Shown here piece by piece: positions 1,368 to 20,413 of a stretch of DNA of 21,283 nucleotides (position 1 is the first letter of the stretch; each line of letters opens with the position of its first letter). Origin of the DNA: a virus. The notes under the pieces were generated by a model. That model was not told the origin of the DNA, searched no databases, and worked only from the letters and a program-made list of their open reading frames with translations. Made by a program: the position numbers and the translations under genes. The stretch lies in the IMG/VR virus record IMGVR_UViG_3300036398_002946, positions 1-21,283 of that record; one strand, written 5' to 3'.

Positions 1368-2966
1368 TTAAATTAATGTTCCTCCTTGGAAGTAATTCGG
1401 TAAAGCTCCTGTTGTCAACCTGAAATCAGTACCACTATACGTTGAATACATTCTATAAACACCAGCAGGTATATTTGTACTTCCCGTATAGTCGATAAAC
1501 AAATTATTTGGTGCTGACCCATTATACGTCGTACTCATTGTTTTATCTGTCATCGCGCCTACCGATGTACCATTTTTAATGGTTGAGTATAATTGTCCGT
1601 TTGTTGCACCTGTTGAAACAAACACTATAACCCAGTTATTTGTTGTTGCAGTATACGCTCCAACTGGAATTTGAACAGTTTGGAATTTATATGCAACAAC
1701 TGGAAGTCCATAAGCATCTGTTGGACCACCACTTGTTGTTGATATTGGTGCTGTTATAATTGCTGGTTCTCCTCCTGTAGTTATATCTCCTGTCCATCCT
1801 GAATAAGCTAAATATGCGTTCATTTGTGAGTTAAATGTTGCTTGAACTTGTGATGGTGACCCAACTTGATTAAATCCTCTGAACGCACTACCTTGAGATA
1901 TCATCCAAGTACTTAAATTAGCTTTAGATTGTGTACCATTTGTATCAATGAATATATAAGCCATCAACCCTGGTTGCGTTGGTGTTGGAGTAGGTGTTGT
2001 TGTTGGAGTTATCGTATTAGTCGGAGTTTGAGTTACCGTTGGTGTTGGTGTTTGAGTATTTGTTGGTGTGTTTGTTGGTGTGTTTGTTGGAGTCTCTGTT
2101 GGAGTTTCAGTGTTCGTCGGTGTATTTGTTGGTGTCTCTGTGTTAGTTGGTGTTTGAGTTGGAGTCTCTGTGTTAGTTGGTGTTTGAGTTGGTGTTTGAG
2201 TTGGTGTTTCAGTATTTGTAGGAGTATTCGTTGGTGTTTCAGTATTTGTAGGAGTATTCGTTGGTGTTTCAGTTGGTGTAGGAGTTTGAGTTTCTGTCGC
2301 AGTTGGTGTTGAACCTGCAGTTGCGGTTGTAGTTGGTGTTTGAGTTTGGGTAGGTGTTTCAGTATTTGTTGGAGTATTTGTTGGGGTCTCAGTATTTGTT
2401 GGTGTCGGTGTTTGAGTCGGTGTCTCTGTATTAGTAGGTGTTGGAGTCTCTGTTGGAGTTTCAGTGTTTGTCGGTGTATTTGTTGGTGTTTCAGTATTAG
2501 TTGGTGTTACACTTGGAGTATTAGTTGGTGTAGGAGTCTGAGTTTCAGTTGCAGTAGGTGTTAATCCAACAGACGCTGTTGGAGAAGGTGTAAGTGTTGG
2601 AGTTGCAGTTTGAGTTGGAGTTTGAGTTGGAGTTTGAGTTTCAGTATTTGTTGGAGTTTGAGTTGGTGTTATAGTATTTGTTGGAGTAATACTTGGTGTT
2701 ACATTGGCAGGAGTTAACGTAGGTGTTGGTGTAGGAGTTGGTGTACCACATTGTAAATTAACAATAACACCATTTAACATTTCAGTTCTTGTTTGAGCAG
2801 AATAATAAATTACAGAATCAACAAAAACATCAAAAGGACCAACAGCATTTGAATTAGATGTAAGTCTAACGATATAAGAAGTACAACTCGTTACCGTTAA
2901 TTGTTGTTCAATTTCCGTTGTACAACCATTCGCATTATTTGTAACAAGAATAGAATATGTAGCCAT
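1368..2966 (-). CDS. Fibre-like protein with a long Thr-Pro repeat stalk
   Basis: This 532-residue protein has three parts. Residues 1-74 form a small beta-rich region with [13 protein letters not shown] and GPFDVFVDS, which resembles the end and beginning of SprB-type repeats seen in the neighbouring proteins. Residues 75-332 are almost only TPTN, TPTE, TPTQ and TPTP units, with a 10-residue period in places. Residues 333-532 form a Gly/Thr/Asn-rich C-terminal domain that I do not recognise. Such Thr-Pro stretches are extended, mucin-like linkers or stalks; this one could hold the C-terminal domain away from the particle. No signal peptide or membrane segment is visible, which fits a virion protein. 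The ATG at 2966 follows an 88-nt gap and lacks a Shine-Dalgarno sequence. A tail fibre or receptor-binding protein is inferred from position and architecture; a cell-surface adhesin is the alternative. Confidence 0.8.
1971..2744 (-). repeat. Thr-Pro coding repeat array (residues 75-332)
   Basis: The minus strand encodes 258 residues in which TP or TPT is followed by Asn, Glu, Gln, Pro or Thr. The register is kept throughout and only a few spots break it (for example ASVG and ATAGS). A 30-bp, 10-residue superunit of the type [10 protein letters not shown] is recognisable in several places. Confidence 0.9.
2201..2260. repeat. Perfect 30-bp tandem duplication in the Thr-Pro array
   Basis: Positions 2201-2230 and 2231-2260 are identical 30-mers, each encoding ten residues. 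The next ten bases (2261-2270) match the start of a third copy. A neighbouring stretch at 2131-2190 shows the same 30-bp period with very few changes. This is the footprint expected of recent in-frame repeat expansion. Confidence 0.9.
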
Positions 2967-3054: not shown

Positions 3055-3387
3055 TTAAGATATACTAATATTGAAGTTACAAGACGAGTTTTCAATACTA
3101 ATATCAACAACACAAGAAGTTAATTGAATGGTAATTTCAAACGCACATCCAAATGTACAATCTAAAATATGAAACACACTACAATTATTATCATCAACCA
3201 AAGTTAACATAACTTGTGGAGCAGTATTAAATATTGTTGGTATTGTTGAATTGTAACTAACAATAGGAGGAACAGGTCCAGGATTTATTATTCCAAGAAG
3301 TGTTTGGTTATTACCATAAATGTCAGATAAATAAACACTTATAGGATAAGTACCACCCGATATTTCATCTATTCTAATTTGTGTCAT
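3055..3387 (-). CDS. Small SprB-repeat-like structural protein, 110 aa
   Basis: I place the start at the ATG at 3387-3385, which overlaps the TGA of the upstream 710-aa gene as ATGA, the usual arrangement for coupled translation. A longer frame would need a TTG at 3396. The protein opens with ISGGTYPISVYLSD (about residues 9-22) and later has LTLVDDNNCS (about 60-70), matching the start (GGTPPY) and end (VTDxxGC) of a SprB-type repeat. A Cys-rich tail follows, with five further cysteines (DCTFGC, TSC, SSC). It therefore looks like a one-domain satellite of its large neighbour, possibly an accessory fibre subunit or cap. No signal peptide or membrane segment is visible. The function is inferred from fold resemblance and position only. 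Confidence 0.75.
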   Translation of the reverse strand: MTQIRIDEISGGTYPISVYLSDIYGNNQTLLGIINPGPVPPIVSYNSTIPTIFNTAPQVMLTLVDDNNCSVFHILDCTFGCAFEITIQLTSCVVDISIENSSCNFNISIS

Positions 3388-5516
3388 GATAAGCAAATAA
3401 TGTTATAATCAATAAATAGTTTTAATATAATTGTCTTACCAATTAATTCATTATTTGTTGTACTTGATTGAATTGTAATTTCATTCAATATAGGATTAAC
3501 GATAACATTTTGAACACCAGGAACACTTAATAATAAACTTTGTGCCGCATCATAGTATAAATTATCAGCAGGAATATCCGTTACTGACGTTGATGTATAG
3601 AAGGTTGTTGTTCCTGAAATACCTGAAGGTTCTACATAAACATTAAGACTATATGTTGCGGAGATTAAACTACAATCTGTTCTACCTGAAGTTAATTGGT
3701 CATAACCTTGATTTAACATTTGTTGTAAACCAAATTGTGTTTGAATTATTTCAAATAATTGTCCACCCATTGGATATATCTCATAAGCAGAAATTGTTGC
3801 ATCACAAGCAATAATTGTATCTCGTTTTAATGAACAACCATTACTATCAATTAAAGTTAAACTATAAGTTCCTCCTGTTAATCCTGAAACGGTAATTTGT
3901 TGTGGATTTCCTGGAACATTATCTGACCAATTATAATTAAATGGAGGAACTCCACTTGAAATAAATGCGGTTATTGCTCCATCAGAACCTGAACCACAAG
4001 AAGTTTCATATAAATTAAAATTAACTTGAGATGTCCCGTTAACAAAAACATTTGTTGTTTGAGTACATCCTGTAGCATCTGTTACACTAATAGTATGTTG
4101 TCCATAAGGAATACTAGTAAATGTAACAGCAGAAAAACTTGATGATATTGAATTATTATTATCCAATAAATAAGTATATGGTGACAAACCTCCATTAGTT
4201 TTTGTCACAGATATCACACCATTATTACCACTACAAGTAGCTCCTGTAACTTGTGTTGATATTGTAAAATTATTTGTGGCGTATAGAGTTATTTCACTAC
4301 TATAAAAACAACCAGATGAATCCGCAACAACGACAGTGTAAGTTCCCGATTGTAAATTAATAAATGAATATGTTGTTTGATAAGTTGTAAAAACACTAGT
4401 GTTTGTATCAGGATATATTAAGGTATACGTATAAGGACCAACACCACCATTAATTGACACAGTGATTAAACCGTCAGTACTAGAACAAGTTGAACCTTGT
4501 GATGTTATATTAACAGAAGATAAACCTTCAGGAGTTAATAATTCTACCGATGTAGCTAATGTACAAAAAGCAGCATCAGTAACTAAAACAGAATACGACC
4601 CAGGTGATAACCCTGAAACAGTCCAAGATGTTCCGTATTGAACCGTAACATTTCCTGTTGACGCAGAATAATAATATGGAGCAGTACCCCCAGTTATTTG
4701 AAGAGTAAATGACCCGTCGGCAGAAAAACAAGTTGGTTGTGTAACCGTAAATTGTCCAAAACCAATTGGGTCTACATTAACAATAGTACCTGTTTTAGTA
4801 TCTGTACATCCATAGTCATCGGTAACTTGTACAGAATAACTACCACTAGTTAAACCTGTAATTGTACTACCTGTTTGTCCATTATTCCATAAATAAGTGT
4901 AAGGAGGAGTTCCTGTAACACCAGTAACATATATCTTACCAATTGGACTACCACCACAACTTGAATTTGGAACAACATATAAACCATATTCTAATGGTGT
5001 TGAATCTTCAATAATAAAAGTTTGACTTTGTCCTGTACATCCACCTAAATCTAAAGCGGTAGTATAATAAGTTCCCGCGGATAAATTCAAGAATGTTACT
5101 TGAGAAGCATCCGTAATGGCTGACGTAATATAGTTACCATCAAAATCATATAAATAAAAATTTGTTGATGAGTAATCAGAACTTGATGTGGCAACAACAG
5201 AACCGTTATCTAATCCACAAGTTGTACTTACAACAGTTTCTATCGTAGCACAAACTCCTGATGATATTGGTATATCAATTGGAAAACTTAAATTTAATGG
5301 TAAAGTACTATCTACAACATATAAACCATAGGTGGTTGTTGTTAAACCAGTTCTAACTGATGGATTTAGTGTTACAACATCTAACCCCAAACTAGGTGAT
5401 ACCCATTGTACACTATATGGTGGAGTACCTCCTGAAAAAGAAATAGAAATAACCCCCGAATTAGTATTCGAACAATCGCCTGTTAATGATATAAAATATT
5501 GAAACGGTGATGCCAT
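3384..5516 (-). CDS. SprB-repeat phage tail/fibre protein, 710 aa
   Basis: About seven consecutive 65-85-residue repeats fill residues 11-566. Each has the SprB-repeat pattern: a Cys near the start, DG or NG, then GGxPPYxYxW, a xGLxxGxYxVxVTD segment and a closing GC (clear pairs near C100/C160, C187/C237, C263/C318, C344/C403, C428/C484, C507/C561). SprB repeats are known from the giant surface adhesin that the Flavobacterium gliding machinery moves. The final 140 residues form a different domain, whose last 90 resemble the C-terminus of the upstream 990-aa protein. The gene starts 2 nt after that gene's stop, and its own TGA overlaps the next ATG. There is no signal peptide or type IX secretion-like C-terminal domain, which argues for a virion protein. 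A fibre or adhesin contacting the host surface is inferred. Confidence 0.85.
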   Translation of the reverse strand: MASPFQYFISLTGDCSNTNSGVISISFSGGTPPYSVQWVSPSLGLDVVTLNPSVRTGLTTTTYGLYVVDSTLPLNLSFPIDIPISSGVCATIETVVSTTCGLDNGSVVATSSSDYSSTNFYLYDFDGNYITSAITDASQVTFLNLSAGTYYTTALDLGGCTGQSQTFIIEDSTPLEYGLYVVPNSSCGGSPIGKIYVTGVTGTPPYTYLWNNGQTGSTITGLTSGSYSVQVTDDYGCTDTKTGTIVNVDPIGFGQFTVTQPTCFSADGSFTLQITGGTAPYYYSASTGNVTVQYGTSWTVSGLSPGSYSVLVTDAAFCTLATSVELLTPEGLSSVNITSQGSTCSSTDGLITVSINGGVGPYTYTLIYPDTNTSVFTTYQTTYSFINLQSGTYTVVVADSSGCFYSSEITLYATNNFTISTQVTGATCSGNNGVISVTKTNGGLSPYTYLLDNNNSISSSFSAVTFTSIPYGQHTISVTDATGCTQTTNVFVNGTSQVNFNLYETSCGSGSDGAITAFISSGVPPFNYNWSDNVPGNPQQITVSGLTGGTYSLTLIDSNGCSLKRDTIIACDATISAYEIYPMGGQLFEIIQTQFGLQQMLNQGYDQLTSGRTDCSLISATYSLNVYVEPSGISGTTTFYTSTSVTDIPADNLYYDAAQSLLLSVPGVQNVIVNPILNEITIQSSTTNNELIGKTIILKLFIDYNIICLS
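3407..3419 (-). promoter_or_regulatory. TATTTA-type element before the 110-aa gene
   Basis: The minus strand reads CTATTTATTGATT, preceded by AAAA, with TATTTA starting 31 nt before the ATG at 3387. It lies inside the last codons of the 710-aa gene, so coding constraint may explain part of it, but it shares AAACTATTTAT with two intergenic copies (18018-18029 and 9411-9423). Confidence 0.35.
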
Positions 5517-5518
5517 TG

Positions 5519-8491
5519 TTAGTTACAATCTATATTAATATTTATTCCTACGTTTAAGTAAACAGTATCTATTGAATTATTGGCATTACAAGTTAAATCT
5601 GTAACGGTTAATTGATTTCCATTTAAAGTATAGGTATAACCATAATTATGAATTAAAGGCAAATATTCAATAAGAGCATTTCTCCATTCTTCAGTTGTAG
5701 GTGAGTCTGTTAATGTTACACCATTATAAAATGGTTCTTGAATTAAAACAACATTGTCAACTCTAAAATCAACATACCAAGTTGTTGAAATTGAATTTTG
5801 AACACAATCATTTAATGTTAATCCACTCTGAGCTAACATATAATTAACTCTATTAACCAAAACACTATCAAAATTGGATACAGTAATATCACCATTTAAC
5901 CAAGCGAATATATTAAATTCTGCATATTCCGTAGAACAATTAACACTGAATATATCGGTAATTAATTCACAAGGTTGAACTTGAACAGGGATAAACTGAC
6001 AACCACTTTGTCTTCTATAAACAAATTTTTGTCTATTTAAAATTGAGTTTTCTAATCTAATACCACTATTCCAAATAGTACTTGCTGGAATCATTTGTTC
6101 AACTAACTTTGTCCAATAAGGACCAATACCATCAACATAATCAATAAGTTTTTGGTATGTGTATTGATTGTTTGGTATTCCAACAGTATTATTTGATTCA
6201 AGATATTTCCAAAAGATTGATTGTAAGTTTGGATAACCACCTGTTTTACCATCACTACTTGTTTGTCTATTTCTAACGTTAATTGTATTCTCAAAAAATG
6301 TTTGAGAAAACTCAAAAAATGTTTTTGTCTTTGGATTAGGTTTATAATATGTTGGTTCAACTCCACCAGGAACTGGGTAATCAATTGTATATCCAGATTC
6401 AGGAATCGGGTAATCGTAATTAACCGATTGGTTCCAAATGTCATATAAAATACCTTGACTTGGATTCATAAACAAATCAACATTCTTAGCGTTTAACACC
6501 AATTTTTCGTTATCAACAAAATAATAAGCATTGTAATCCGAAGAATTTGAAACTCTTATCTTATCATTATCGGATAGCCAAGCTTTATTATTATCTACAA
6601 CTTTTGTAAGTTCAAACCCTAATTCCATATATGGAAATTGTCTGTATCTATCCAAATATGTTTGTCCATAAGTGAACGGAGCAAGTTGTGTTTGTATATC
6701 AAGATTTTGTCCCGTGTAAACAGCACCAGTAATTTGAACCTCATTTGGACTTCTATGACTAGAAGTTTGTTCATACCAACCAGCACCGATTTGGTTAAAG
6801 AATGTTTCGGTGTTTGCCGGAGCATTAGGATAACCTTCTATGTCAATTGGATAATCTCTTAAAGATATGTTAGCATTAATATATGTATTACTTTCAGTAA
6901 ATGCGGTATAAAGAACACCTTTTATCTTATAGGTATCACTAACCAAATAACTCGGAGTTTTTTCAACATATGTACCACCTGATATTTGTGTCCATTGTGT
7001 TGTGAATTGCTCAAGATTAATTCTTTGGTCAGCCAAGTATATGTGTTCGTTATATTCAATTAACGACTCTGGAGCACCAACCAATCTTAATAAAAACTCT
7101 ACCGACCTTCTTGTTCCTTTTGATTTAAAAAGATAAGAAGCATTCAATATTAAGTTTCTGTAATAGGCATAATTTAATTCTGTTGGAGTGAGAGCTCTAG
7201 CATATCCAGGATATGTTGGAGTTGATGTATTACCAAAAACAGAACCTAAGAAATCTTCATTTGTTATCGGTGAAAAGTTTGATGACCATCCCAATGTTCG
7301 AGACAAGTTAACCAATAATTGTGAAGGTATATCATTTGATGGATTATAATTAACTGAGTTCATATAAGCCAAACCATCAATAAATTGTTTTACTTGGTCA
7401 AAACTTCTACCATATATTTGAAATATCTTTTCAACTTTTTGACCTAATGTATCAAACTCTTTTAACGATGCGGTAACCAAAAATCTTGAAATAAGGTTTG
7501 TCTTAAATGAATCTAAATTAACCGCAATTGCTTGAATTTCCTCCAAATATCTGTCAAATAAAAATGACCTAATATCTAAATTCCAATCACCATCTTTTGG
7601 CCAAGTCACCTGTTGATACTCCGTATATTGTTGTCCAAACTCATTTTGTTGTGGAACTTGGAATACAGCGGTATACTCAGGACGAACCAATCTATTAACT
7701 AAAAATTGTTCAACCTCATCAAAGTTTTCTAAGAATGTTTTATCAACAATAAAATCATTTGGTCTTATTTGATATTCACCATCAAAAGTAGTTGCCGTGG
7801 TTCCAAAAGGAGCTCCCGAAACATAAAAACTAATATATCCAGTACTTAACGTCTCTGATGGTGTAAATGATAATACTTTATAAATGTTATCGTTAATACT
7901 AACACAATAATCCAAGTATGTCTGATATAAATTTCTATATGGTGAAACAGTAATTTCTCTAACACCAAGATTAGTTGTTGCACTAACAGAGTAATCAATA
8001 TCAAATGGATTATTTATCCTATCAACATTAACTCTAAAATAAGTTTCATCTTGTTGAGCATCATAAATAATATCATAAGCCGTGTTTCCTGTCGTATAGT
8101 AGATACTATTAAACATAACATCCAAAGATGCTGGAAAATAATTAATAATCTTTGTAATAGACACACTAAATCTTTTTGATAGTGAACCATACATTGAAAA
8201 GTTTAGAACTTGAGAAACATCATAGTTAGGATAAACTTTAAATTGTGTTGCAAGTATTCTTCTACTTTCTTCAAGGTCATTAATGTCCAACATCTCCAAA
8301 GATATTGGTTCAGAGAATGCCCCGACATTAAAAGTTCTATTAACTTTTTCCGTTATTCCTGTTGTGAACTCGAAATTACCTTGCGTAAGTCCTCCCCCTT
8401 CAACAGTTTGTAAACCTACAATGTTGTCTGAAAAAGTTCCCGCTCCGTTTCCGGGTCTTGGTGGATAAAAAAACTTACTACCTGTAGCCAT
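5519..8491 (-). CDS. Baseplate protein with tail-protein-I (BW3/gp7-type) signature, 990 aa
   Basis: Residues about 388-475 have the order of features found in P2 gpI-type tail proteins: IPSQLLVNLSRTLGW, a variable stretch, YYRNLILNASYLFKSKGTRR and a short EFLLRLVGAPESL helix. The helix plus KGT block is the family's most conserved part. Tail protein I is the BW3 wedge component (gp7 in T4) that pairs with gp6/J. Here it is much longer than gpI (about 180 aa in P2) and nearer T4 gp7 (about 1030 aa). A later conserved-looking block is EQMIPASTIW near residue 800, followed by a Cys-containing C-terminal region whose last 90 residues resemble those of the downstream 710-aa protein. The start overlaps the upstream stop as TAATG. 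The assignment is by visible motif and not by alignment; another baseplate or fibre-connector protein is possible. Confidence 0.6.
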   Translation of the reverse strand: MATGSKFFYPPRPGNGAGTFSDNIVGLQTVEGGGLTQGNFEFTTGITEKVNRTFNVGAFSEPISLEMLDINDLEESRRILATQFKVYPNYDVSQVLNFSMYGSLSKRFSVSITKIINYFPASLDVMFNSIYYTTGNTAYDIIYDAQQDETYFRVNVDRINNPFDIDYSVSATTNLGVREITVSPYRNLYQTYLDYCVSINDNIYKVLSFTPSETLSTGYISFYVSGAPFGTTATTFDGEYQIRPNDFIVDKTFLENFDEVEQFLVNRLVRPEYTAVFQVPQQNEFGQQYTEYQQVTWPKDGDWNLDIRSFLFDRYLEEIQAIAVNLDSFKTNLISRFLVTASLKEFDTLGQKVEKIFQIYGRSFDQVKQFIDGLAYMNSVNYNPSNDIPSQLLVNLSRTLGWSSNFSPITNEDFLGSVFGNTSTPTYPGYARALTPTELNYAYYRNLILNASYLFKSKGTRRSVEFLLRLVGAPESLIEYNEHIYLADQRINLEQFTTQWTQISGGTYVEKTPSYLVSDTYKIKGVLYTAFTESNTYINANISLRDYPIDIEGYPNAPANTETFFNQIGAGWYEQTSSHRSPNEVQITGAVYTGQNLDIQTQLAPFTYGQTYLDRYRQFPYMELGFELTKVVDNNKAWLSDNDKIRVSNSSDYNAYYFVDNEKLVLNAKNVDLFMNPSQGILYDIWNQSVNYDYPIPESGYTIDYPVPGGVEPTYYKPNPKTKTFFEFSQTFFENTINVRNRQTSSDGKTGGYPNLQSIFWKYLESNNTVGIPNNQYTYQKLIDYVDGIGPYWTKLVEQMIPASTIWNSGIRLENSILNRQKFVYRRQSGCQFIPVQVQPCELITDIFSVNCSTEYAEFNIFAWLNGDITVSNFDSVLVNRVNYMLAQSGLTLNDCVQNSISTTWYVDFRVDNVVLIQEPFYNGVTLTDSPTTEEWRNALIEYLPLIHNYGYTYTLNGNQLTVTDLTCNANNSIDTVYLNVGININIDCN

Positions 8492-9399
8492 TAACCTGTG
8501 ATGTTTGTAAAGTTTTTACTGAAATCAATATTAGTTCCCCTACTTTGTCTAACCTCATATAACAATGCGTTAAATTGGTCTCTAATTTCATATAAGTTGT
8601 ATTGTCTGTATATGTTATTTTCAGCATCGTAGATTGTGTAAATACCGTCATCAATAGATTTAGTTTGATTTCCGTAAAGAGCAATAGCAAGAGACGAAAT
8701 ATCGTATTCAACCATTTCAATCTCCAACGTCAATGGGTTAAAGAATGTATTTGTAATAATAATACTTTGATTTGGTTGACCAATAAACGGAGTTGCGTTT
8801 GGCTTATTTGTTGGTGATGATGAAGGTGATAATGTTAAGAAGATTAAATTTGAATCTCCATCAACATATCTATATCTAATTGATTTTTGTGTTACGTTAA
8901 CTTCGTTTGTAATAACTGGCTCACAGAAAAATGCTGAAGTGATAACTCTAAAAAAGTTAGGTATCTTTGAACCATCGGGATTTAAGTATTCAACTCTGAA
9001 TCCTGTTAATCCTTGAGTAACAAACTTATTTTGGTATTGTGCTGGAACATTTGAAATATCGATAATAATACCCTTCACATTAGGTAGTGCAGATAACACA
9101 CCACAATCTGTAATTATTGTTCTTATCTGAGCTGGTCTTATATATAATGTATAAATTCCAACCGCATTGAACGTATCGGCAGGTAAAGTTAAATTGTATA
9201 ATCCACCCAAAACTTCAACACCAGCGTTTCCACCTGTCTCCGTATTATTGAAATAAGGTTTCAATATAGATTGAGCATCCAATTGTGTTAACACAAAATT
9301 ATCTGTTATATCCCTCGTAGGAGTGTAATTTAATATAATCTGAACATCTTCAGGACTTACGTCTGAAGGTCTTATTGTCCCATATGCACCAATTGCCAT
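8491..9399 (-). CDS. Phage structural protein of unknown family, 302 aa
   Basis: I do not recognise a family. The protein begins MAIGAYGTIRPSDVSPEDV and has alternating beta-type segments, few charged clusters, no signal peptide and no membrane segment. Its C-terminal 40 residues (YNLYEIRDQFNALLYEVRQS) look helical and could be an assembly or connector element. It follows a 43-nt gap after the PKD-like gene and carries a strong copy of the TATTTA element 23 nt before its ATG. Its TAA overlaps the ATG of the tail-protein-I-like gene as TAATG, so the two are probably made together and may interact. Its position in the baseplate cluster suggests a baseplate or tail accessory protein. Confidence 0.7.
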   Translation of the reverse strand: MAIGAYGTIRPSDVSPEDVQIILNYTPTRDITDNFVLTQLDAQSILKPYFNNTETGGNAGVEVLGGLYNLTLPADTFNAVGIYTLYIRPAQIRTIITDCGVLSALPNVKGIIIDISNVPAQYQNKFVTQGLTGFRVEYLNPDGSKIPNFFRVITSAFFCEPVITNEVNVTQKSIRYRYVDGDSNLIFLTLSPSSSPTNKPNATPFIGQPNQSIIITNTFFNPLTLEIEMVEYDISSLAIALYGNQTKSIDDGIYTIYDAENNIYRQYNLYEIRDQFNALLYEVRQSRGTNIDFSKNFTNITG

Positions 9400-9410
9400 A
9401 AATTATTATT

Positions 9411-9423
9411 TATTTATAAATAG
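9411..9423 (-). promoter_or_regulatory. TATTTA-type element, strongest copy, before the 302-aa gene
   Basis: The minus strand reads CTATTTATAAATA, preceded by AAA, with TATTTA starting exactly 23 nt before the ATG at 9399, the same spacing as the copy at 18018-18029. It also contains TATAAATA (9418-9411), identical to the T4 late-promoter consensus. It sits in a 43-nt intergenic gap, so coding constraint does not explain it. Confidence 0.5.
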
Positions 9424-9442
9424 TTTAGTTCTTTTTTTCAAA

Positions 9443-18005: not shown

Positions 18006-18098
18006 CTAATGTCTTTAATTAATAAATAGTTTATGTGGAATTTTTAAAATGTACCCACACAATTTAATTATAAGTTAAAGTGTTTATAAATAAACCAG
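18006..18098. other. Intergenic region between the gp6-like and 1607-aa genes
   Basis: This 93-nt A+T-rich gap is the longest in the window. It holds a copy of the TATTTA element near the downstream start, a short GTTTA/TAAAC hairpin just after the gp6-like stop, and no open reading frame of note. It is a reasonable place for a new transcript start. Confidence 0.6.
18018..18029 (-). promoter_or_regulatory. TATTTA-type element before the 1607-aa gene
   Basis: The minus strand reads CTATTTATTAAT, preceded by AAA, with TATTTA starting 23 nt before the ATG at 18005. Sequence and spacing match the copy at 9411-9423. It is intergenic. Confidence 0.5.
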
Positions 18099-19937
18099 TT
18101 AAGAGAAAGTAACTGATTGGAAGTTTTTAACCAAAACTTTAATATCTTTAGTTGGATATCTAATTTGATAAACTTGTGAAGGTTGAGCAAAAATTGTATC
18201 ATCAACCGTTGAAATAAGTTTTGTTTCAGCATCTGCATATGACATTGAAGTCTCCGCTGAAGAATACTGACCACCAACTTGATTGAATACATCTAATCCA
18301 GCAACAGTTAAAACACCATTTGTATTTTGAATTAAACTCTTTATCTCAGATAGATAAACGTTTTGTCCCAACTCTCTTGTTTGTGGATTAAAGTATGTCG
18401 AAATTTTATCAATAACACTTGAAATTACTTGTCCTGAGTTTTGTGCCGAATCTAAAACGATTGAAACCTCAACACCTAAGTCAATAACCTCAGCGGTAAA
18501 GATTGAAATATAATCATTCATCATTCGATAGTTTGATAAATAATTGGCAATATTTTGTCTTAAAGTATTTGATACAATATTAGTTAACTTACCCGAAGTA
18601 TCATAAGATAATACTTGAATTAATATTTTGTTATCATTTTCAGTTATTGATACTTTAGCAGGAGCTCCGAACTCTGCTGGCATGTTTCTAATCAACGAAT
18701 CATAATCTTGAACGGTAACGGCTCTTTTTTGAGCTGAAAAGTTAAATGAAACGTAATTTCTAATTTCTTCTAATGAAGGAATACCAGCTCCACCAACTGC
18801 TGCAGTTACGTTAGTACATCTTAAAGAGTTAACTACTGATGAGTTTGTTGTCTCTGATGGACCATTAACTGAGAACGATACGGTACCAATTTGATTAATA
18901 ACACTTGTTCCCAAGTTTGTTCCTAATCCACCACCAACTCTATATTGAATAAACAAAGTTGAATTAGGTATTAATGTTGAACCTAATGAAATGTTATTAG
19001 AATATCTTTGTAAATCTAAAGTAACCCCAAGTGTTGTAAATTGATTTAATTGGTCTTGAGCAGTATTTGTACCACCACCAAATGTCATCTTTTTAAATCC
19101 TTCAGGTGTGTATTCTGTTATAAATCTATCTTGTGTTTGAATATATTTACCCACTTTAATACCTGGTTGGTCAGAAACTTTGGTAGGGTCTTCAATAAAA
19201 ACTCTATCTTCAGCTAAGGCATCAACTTCATACCATCTATTAGATAAACCTAAAAATTCTGCGGTTGTTGGAATATTTGTATATTCTGTTCCACTTTTTA
19301 ATAATACACTTGTAATACCAAGTACATTCTTTTCAGGTAAAAATAATTCAAAGAATGGTTTAACATCATTTGCACCAATTACTCTTTTAAACACTTTGGT
19401 TATACCATTGACAACCATTTCTCGTTTTGTAATTGTATAATTCACAAGAACATTATTAGAGTTAAAGTTTGGTATTTTTAATCTATTAGGATAACCTTGA
19501 GAATTATATGGTGAAGCAAAATCAATATCATAAATGTTTTCAAATACAACACCAGCACCAGTTACTTGTGAACCTCTTAATAATGTTCCAAGATATCTTT
19601 CATCTTCTTTATCACCAAAGGCAGGAACCGTAATTGAAAAATCAACTAAAGCAACCGATGGTCTTTGACCCGGTAATTTTAAACCATAAGTTCTTGCAAT
19701 ATTATAAATTGAAGACCTTTGTTGAGCATATTGTAATACAGTTTCCTGAATACTTCTATCAATTTGATAGTTTAAGTTATCTGCAACGGCAGCATTTAAA
19801 TCAAGGAAAACCGAGAACACCGAAGCATCATTAAAATCCTGAATTAATTCAGGGTAATACGTTTTTACGTAATTTAATAATTCAGTTCTTATTCCTTGGA
19901 AATCTCTGGTTGTGTACGATATTTTGTTATTTGCCAT
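18099..19937 (-). CDS. gp6: Baseplate wedge protein, gp6/J-like, 612 aa
   Basis: The N-terminus (ISYTTRDFQGIRTELLNYV, then DFNDASVFSVFLDLNAAVAD) is the start typical of T4 gp6-like wedge proteins. The block near residues 402-416 (AQKRAVTVQDYDSLI) matches the RAVTxxDY core motif of the baseplate-J family. T4 gp6 is 660 aa, so the length fits. In contractile tails gp6/J dimerises around gp7/I to form the wedge ring that gp25/W joins to the sheath. The start lies 5 nt after the gp25-like stop, the W-J order typical of these phages. No Shine-Dalgarno sequence is visible. The assignment is firm at family level. Confidence 0.92.
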   Translation of the reverse strand: MANNKISYTTRDFQGIRTELLNYVKTYYPELIQDFNDASVFSVFLDLNAAVADNLNYQIDRSIQETVLQYAQQRSSIYNIARTYGLKLPGQRPSVALVDFSITVPAFGDKEDERYLGTLLRGSQVTGAGVVFENIYDIDFASPYNSQGYPNRLKIPNFNSNNVLVNYTITKREMVVNGITKVFKRVIGANDVKPFFELFLPEKNVLGITSVLLKSGTEYTNIPTTAEFLGLSNRWYEVDALAEDRVFIEDPTKVSDQPGIKVGKYIQTQDRFITEYTPEGFKKMTFGGGTNTAQDQLNQFTTLGVTLDLQRYSNNISLGSTLIPNSTLFIQYRVGGGLGTNLGTSVINQIGTVSFSVNGPSETTNSSVVNSLRCTNVTAAVGGAGIPSLEEIRNYVSFNFSAQKRAVTVQDYDSLIRNMPAEFGAPAKVSITENDNKILIQVLSYDTSGKLTNIVSNTLRQNIANYLSNYRMMNDYISIFTAEVIDLGVEVSIVLDSAQNSGQVISSVIDKISTYFNPQTRELGQNVYLSEIKSLIQNTNGVLTVAGLDVFNQVGGQYSSAETSMSYADAETKLISTVDDTIFAQPSQVYQIRYPTKDIKVLVKNFQSVTFS

Positions 19938-19942
19938 TTCTA

Positions 19943-20413
19943 TTAAATATTGATAATCACAAAATCACTCTGAGCAAATGTTGAACCATTTGTAGAATAA
20001 TCTAATCTTATTTTTGCTGTATATTCTGATGTTCCTTTACCAGGAAATCTATAAACCGAAGATTCACTAGTTCCTGCAGAGTTTTGTCCTGTTGCAATGT
20101 CCAATTCTTCTTGTGGGTCTGCGGGTGTTATTGTTAAATTATTAATTAAAAGATTTGGCATAAAATTTTCAACCGCGTCTCTAATGTCAGATTCAATAGC
20201 ATTAAATGTTAAACCATCAAATGGTTCAAATAAAAATTCATACAATCTAGTACCAAAAGTTGGTAAATAATACCTTGAACCTTTTCGAGTTAATAAAAGA
20301 TGAATCAAATCAGCCTTTATTTCTTGTTGTTGAAATTGAGTTAATTCTAAGTAATCACCCCTTTCAGAATCTCTGAAGGGAAAATTAAGACCATATGTTG
20401 TACCGTCTGCCAT
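19943..20413 (-). CDS. gp25: Baseplate wedge protein, gp25/GPW family, 156 aa
   Basis: The conserved family core is clear: IKADLIHLLLTRKGSRYY followed by LPTFGTRLYEFLFEP (to about residue 64) and a helix IESDIRDAVENFMPNL. T4 gp25 is 132 aa; the extra length lies in the loop around residues 98-125 (PADPQEELDIATGQ and on). gp25/W is the wedge component that links the baseplate to the first sheath ring and triggers contraction. The gene is followed at 5 nt by the gp6-like gene, as expected. It starts 20 nt after the DUF5522-like stop, with an A+T-rich leader and no Shine-Dalgarno sequence. It is small, cytoplasmic before assembly and part of the virion. Confidence 0.93.
   Translation of the reverse strand: MADGTTYGLNFPFRDSERGDYLELTQFQQQEIKADLIHLLLTRKGSRYYLPTFGTRLYEFLFEPFDGLTFNAIESDIRDAVENFMPNLLINNLTITPADPQEELDIATGQNSAGTSESSVYRFPGKGTSEYTAKIRLDYSTNGSTFAQSDFVIINI

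Follow-up and report, generated by a model that had tools for sequence, protein, structure and literature searches.

A conserved protein of seven SprB-type repeats as a possible baseplate-linked arm for exchangeable adhesins in an uncultured phage clade

The window, the whole stretch of 21,283 nucleotides analyzed here, is part of a virus record (IMG/VR record IMGVR_UViG_3300036398_002946, positions 1 to 21,283), and all of the genes and domains located in it below lie on the minus strand. It contains a gp25 baseplate wedge protein (19943..20413; PF04965, E=4.7e-10) and a gp6, or baseplate J-like, wedge protein (18099..19937; PF04865, E=6.1e-7; PHROG baseplate wedge, 3.8e-24). The same cluster holds a 710-aa open reading frame with an ATG start (3384..5516), referred to here as the SprB gene, which begins 2 nt past the stop of p990 (5519..8491), a large baseplate-cluster protein of 990 aa. 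A preliminary description of this DNA had reported that spacing and had placed the gene in a phage baseplate/fiber cluster, and both points hold. A chromosomal surface-protein locus does not fit what was found, as the neighbors are gp25, gp6, and phage genes, with no link to sprC, sprD, or sprF. Upstream of p990 lies p302 (8491..9399), the most conserved gene of its unit (72-90% identity across the clade). Being far more conserved than its neighbors and belonging to no known family, p302 is a good marker gene for the phage group; neither the 50,697 phage records searched nor 395 Bacteroidota genomes contained a match. A prophage or host link through p302 was considered and dropped, as the 395 Bacteroidota genomes held no host copies, although such an empty answer proves little.

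Downstream of the SprB gene, p113 (3055..3396) encodes a small protein of uncertain start that has relatives in many loci and matches no family in Pfam or NCBIfam. It is followed by p532 (1368..2966), which consists of an N-domain, a Thr-Pro linker, and a tip of about 190 aa, and which matches phrog_15511 (E=1.2e-16), a family whose function is unassigned. This protein is probably a separate adhesin module. An open reading frame cut at the window edge (1-1331) carries many collagen-like GTSGSSGTDG triplet repeats and probably encodes another fiber protein.

The preliminary description had read the 710-aa protein as seven SprB-type repeats, and profile searches and structure prediction agree with that reading. 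PF13573, the Pfam SprB family, matches the whole protein in six stretches (E=2.5e-25, 88.2 bits against a cut-off of 28) and is also matched by 47/47 aligned relatives. Seven Ig-like repeats of about 80 aa were delimited: R1 (residues 5-92, 5241..5504; PF13573 E=1.5e-5), which has position-specific orthologues in 50/50 relatives; R2 (residues 90-172, 5001..5249), the most divergent; R3 (residues 173-249, 4770..5000; E=1.1e-6), the best conserved, with a mean identity of 61% across the phage family; R4 (residues 250-331, 4524..4769; E=1.8e-8); R5 (residues 332-415, 4272..4523; E=3.5e-6); R6 (residues 416-496, 4029..4271; E=2.8e-4); and R7 (residues 497-571, 3804..4028; E=3.2e-6). Cut out singly, six of the seven units thus match PF13573 (E 1.8e-8 to 2.8e-4), although only two of the six, R3 and R4, exceed the curated single-domain cut-off of 28 bits. 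R2 alone gave no PF13573 match, showing weak matches to Ig_7/SpaA instead; it is Ig-like in the AlphaFold2 model and retains its Cys pair in 92% of relatives. The model, built from a 47-row alignment, places seven beta-sandwich domains in series (mean pLDDT 84, pTM 0.39). As had been stated, the repeats of one protein are divergent from each other, with identities of 11-38% (mean 27%). Depending on the repeat, the Cys pair is present in 68-100% of phage relatives.

An uncultured Caudovirales phage protein annotated as "SprB repeat" (A0A6J5LD72, 714 aa) is already present in UniProt and BFVD and belongs to the same family, with 36% identity over the full length and a Foldseek E-value of 1.7e-64; it bears an automatic domain name only, and no description of its function or context was found. 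Nor did the open-access literature, with most subscription journals outside its scope, yield a description of SprB repeats as a phage part. The best PDB match by both profile (E=6.8e-7) and fold (E=5.5e-21) is the GhpA grappling hook of Aureispira (9flp and others), which likewise consists of tandem Ig-like domains. However, GhpA is a cellular hook protein of 5,898 aa, and only the domain type is common to both.

A scan of IMG/VR for the SprB family returned at least 259 contigs with relatives, of which 80 were examined. In all 80, the SprB gene lies directly behind p990, and the order p1607-p591-p291-p369-p302-p990-SprB is complete in 79, the remaining record (L058) beginning at p302. As a guard against circularity, p990 served as the bait of a second scan. 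It yielded at least 564 relatives, of which 80 were examined, and some contigs were common to both scans. SprB was adjacent in 78/78 contigs with sequence at that position; 74 of these contain the C-terminal domain described below, three are cut by the contig end, and in one (L247) the open reading frame is broken after about 166 aa. Core length is similarly constant, at 703-718 aa in 69/71 members of the p990-baited set and 698-724 aa in 43/49 representatives, holding down to 37-40% identity, while the other six measure about 700 aa once an N-terminal extension is removed. The 642-kb phage LR756502.1 was not counted as an orthologue because its 14 SprB matches, borne by a 1675-aa open reading frame at about 514-519 kb (L004), occur without the C-domain. 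No isolate of this clade was found among the 50,697 phage records.

For each repeat, the best average match in other phages is the repeat at the same position (350/350 comparisons, 50 representatives). Together with the 27% identity within one protein, this positional orthology indicates that the array was complete before the clade diverged and, to judge from these sequences, it has not been remodeled since. Trees of the SprB repeats and of p990 correlate (Mantel r 0.93, null maximum 0.27) and have 27/35 supported splits in common, and the repeat trees are also congruent with the wedge gene. The origin of the repeats is therefore not recent, as the preliminary description had proposed. The C-domain evolves at least as fast as the repeats, a pattern that would not be expected of a direct, host-specific receptor tip.

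Residues 572-710 (3387..3803) make up a distinct C-terminal domain that the preliminary description overlooked. In the AlphaFold2 model, this separate domain follows the seven Ig-like domains as a helix, two strands, a helix, and three strands (H-EE-H-EEE); it holds an invariant Cys pair (C615/C708) and finds only middling matches among PDB structures (Z 4-5, mixed proteins). Aligned by hhalign, SprB residues 566-710 match the C-terminus of p990 (probability 96%, P=4.9e-9), whereas all other 150-aa segments of six phage proteins stayed at or below 5% and eight column shuffles at or below 0.3%. An HMM of the SprB C-domain retrieves the p990 of the window directly (E=2.4e-5), and in two separate AlphaFold2 models, the C-terminal domains of SprB and of p990 (residues 836-990, 5522..5986) show the same order of helices and strands. 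By these comparisons, the two C-domains are paralogues. The SprB C-domain was not found in 79 Bacteroidota loci, Flavobacterium phage immuto, Microcystis phage Mel-JY01, or LR756502.1, and sister phages of the immuto group, which encode a distant homologue of p990 and no SprB protein, lack both C-domains. Paralogous end domains on neighboring genes, both present or both absent, suggest that the two domains contact each other or one shared partner.

The preliminary description had called the gene upstream of SprB tail-protein-I-like, an assignment that found no support in Pfam, PHROGs, NCBIfam, or the PDB. With p990 examined as a candidate tail protein I or gp7, neither Pfam nor PHROGs gave a match in 39 members, and the protein has no family assignment. 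The AlphaFold2 core of p990 is poor (pLDDT 55); Foldseek returned nothing below E=0.001 for this model, and in a structural comparison (VIA) the best Z was 5.6, with the T4 baseplate chain 5iv5_AF at a Z of 3.8 that does not constitute evidence. Residues of about 284-479 are homologous to proteins of Mel-JY01 and immuto, and in these isolate phages the homologue of this middle part is a large protein encoded by the second or third gene past gp6. Its position and this weak homology to baseplate-cluster proteins suggest that p990 is a baseplate protein.

The layout of the SprB protein recalls that of T4 Hoc, in which Ig-like domains are likewise strung ahead of a conserved C-terminal domain for attachment (PMC10385173), and it could accordingly be a generic surface-decorating Ig fiber of the Hoc type, which would stick reversibly to polysaccharides or particles and keep the phage near its hosts. 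The two differ in that the SprB protein has seven domains, not three, and a C-domain related to p990 and, as far as tested, not to the capsid-binding domain of Hoc; a weak match to the Hoc-like phrog_4069 (E=0.041) lies in R5 (residues 345-407), outside the C-domain. Both operon and paralogy tie the SprB protein to p990 and not to capsid genes, and it is present in every clade member, whereas Hoc is dispensable. We consider a Hoc-like decoration quite unlikely.

SprB-type domains were found in 136 phage records, mostly in the whiskers of enterobacterial phages, which points to a second alternative, namely that the protein is a neck whisker or collar fiber of the fibritin type rather than a baseplate arm. 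The fibritin (Wac) of RB43/RB16-type T4-like phages has Ig-like domains (PMC3797505) and shares the SprB/Ig-type domain: RB16 Wac reaches 41.9 bits with PF13573, above the cut-off, besides matching Ig_3, and its gene comes after baseplate genes, as the SprB gene does. A T5-like neck whisker bears the same domain, and the profile also finds the solved structure 9occ ("neck whiskers gp24"; E=2.6e-4). The SprB-type domains of these two whisker genes were located at L170:1444-3729 (RB16 wac) and L171:3761-4507 (T5-like neck whisker protein). However, the foldon and coiled coil of the RB43/RB16 fibritins are missing from the SprB protein, and the gene neighbors are different. Fibritin_C (PF07921), which scores 81.5 bits in RB16 Wac, did not match the SprB protein of the window even with E-values as high as 1 allowed; the C-domain is related to p990 rather than to a neck protein, and no neck genes are adjacent in the loci read. 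A whisker or collar fiber is thus unlikely in our assessment.

While the core is constant, its ends are not. An extension of more than 30 aa stands behind the core in 22/50 representatives, mostly as a Thr-Pro-rich linker followed by an unrelated domain, and some fifteen unrelated tip domains were counted, most of them behind Thr-Pro linkers. Six representatives have an N-terminal extension of about 300 aa, instead of or besides the C-terminal one. L009 and L011 have cores that are 89% identical and tips of 1 and 376 aa, and L006 and L008 combine nearly identical cores with wholly different C-terminal extensions behind Thr-Pro linkers. The window protein ends at the C-domain, and the N-domain, linker, and tip sit in the separate gene p532. 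Such tip swapping onto a stable core is the pattern of a platform with exchangeable parts, for which we infer an adhesin role. The fixed length and strict conservation would also suit a scaffold or tape-like factor in tail or fiber assembly that is absent from the finished virion, but an Ig-like array whose Cys pairs are conserved and whose adhesive tips are swapped fits an exposed part, and we regard such a factor as extremely improbable. The same phages encode further downstream proteins with one or a few SprB-type domains (L059:12588-16893, L061:16375-20285, and L053:13866-15290). In two loci, an insertion that separates the SprB gene from the next tip genes encodes a 325-aa protein (L061:13794-14771 and L002:11773-12750); this protein looks glycosyltransferase-like by eye and possibly modifies the virion or host surface.

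In 41/54 distinct upstream regions of p302 (2.0 in shuffles), the box A(C/G)TATTTAT is present about 23 nt before the gene, and it recurs at this distance upstream of p532 in 21/24 relatives (1.2 in shuffles). TATTTAT occurred upstream of p990 in 0/52 cases and upstream of SprB in 2/60, which is chance level (2.5 when shuffled). From this enrichment, A(C/G)TATTTAT is probably the late promoter of the clade, with ACTATTTAT (9416..9424, minus strand) as the putative box of the p302-p990-SprB unit. On the minus strand of the window, the box was seen at 9416-9424, 18022-18030, and 2987-2993. The T4 late promoter TATAAATA, from which the clade box differs, was not enriched. Because the box stands before p302 and none stands before p990 or SprB, the three genes probably form one late transcription unit, with the tip gene p532 in another.

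No Shine-Dalgarno signal above shuffles was detected in the clade genes, and the same was true of the Bacteroidota loci and Flavobacterium phage immuto; the comparison phages Mel-JY01 (28 genes) and E. coli phage RB16 (only 4 genes) differed, and LR756502.1 looks alike in this comparison. Together, the missing signal and the relationship to immuto indicate Bacteroidota hosts, an indication that falls short of proof, and the clade probably infects this phylum. A search for the Bacteroidota-type promoter TTTG-N17-21-TAnnTTTG gave no clear difference between groups.

Whether the repeats were taken from such hosts is a separate matter. At least 554 SprB-repeat relatives were found in genome contigs, and 79/79 examined loci are from Bacteroidota, with 1-85 repeats per protein. 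On this evidence, cellular SprB-repeat proteins represent a broad Ig-like class in Bacteroidota that is not peculiar to SprB. In the comparison with SprB, the gliding adhesin, and other such host proteins, the PF13573 domain type and the Cys pair (90% of 1,863 host repeats) proved common to both sides, whereas the phage protein has exactly seven repeats, a phage operon, and a C-domain found only in phages, and lacks the variable repeat number and the type IX secretion (T9SS) domain of the host proteins. The preliminary description had correctly noted the missing T9SS domain: no sorting domain (NCBIfam TIGR04131/TIGR04183) was found at the C-terminus, and 5/5 host SprB-repeat controls were positive. 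Likewise, nothing resembling a signal peptide was seen by eye at the N-terminus MASPFQYFISLTGDC.

That description had further proposed that the phage may have captured host adhesin domains in order to bind the same ligand, contact the adhesin directly, or engage the gliding machinery when adsorbing. The nearest cellular relatives are indeed Bacteroidota SprB-repeat proteins, SprB has been discussed as a possible phage receptor, and gliding proteins are suspected receptors (PMC13288928, PMC7345892). Against the best host repeats, R3 reaches 68.6 and R7 68.5 bits, which equals their scores with other phage positions, although the best host score is taken over about 1,900 host repeats and is inflated by their number. 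This equal resemblance indicates a domain class common to hosts and phages, and profile scores do not tell the direction of transfer. The same domain occurs in whiskers of phages that infect enterobacteria, which lack a gliding apparatus, and the breadth of the class in Bacteroidota, the fixed array, its vertical inheritance, and repeats no more variable than the C-domain all speak against mimicry of a host adhesin. Capture from the gliding adhesin thus found no support, nothing was found that links the protein to gliding, and we judge such mimicry very unlikely. The more specific version, in which the array binds host SprB-type adhesins through like-like contacts and the phage rides the moving adhesin to an injection site, is highly improbable. 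Should the arm bind SprB-type proteins of the host after all, the phage would clearly exemplify the use of an adhesin domain that belongs to the host itself.

We favor, with moderate confidence, the view that the SprB protein is an arm or platform of the virion, linked to the baseplate and fitted with exchangeable adhesins, in a large T4-like phage clade that probably infects Bacteroidota. Under this model, the seven SprB-type Ig-like domains would form a stiff rod of fixed length. The C-domain, duplicated from or common to that of p990, would anchor the rod on the baseplate, with either p990 or a partner that both bind as its contact. Beyond this domain, Thr-Pro linkers with exchangeable tips, in the same protein or in the next genes, would provide host-specific binding, so that the array would be the permanent arm and the tips its changing adhesins.

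Ig-like arrays are already known from phages in fibritins and Hoc, and the SprB array is a variant of these. A comparable case is the BACON tandem repeats of crAss-like phages, also a Bacteroidota-typical tandem domain in a tail-linked phage protein (PMC6949934); BACON is a different domain, and its arrays are variable and originated by duplication or transfer, whereas the SprB array is fixed at seven units across the clade. The combination of seven SprB repeats with a p990-type C-domain provides a marker protein for a large uncultured phage clade, and an "SprB" annotation in viromes marks an Ig-like structural domain rather than gliding or host genes. The arm model offers a concrete guess at how adhesins may be mounted in these phages.
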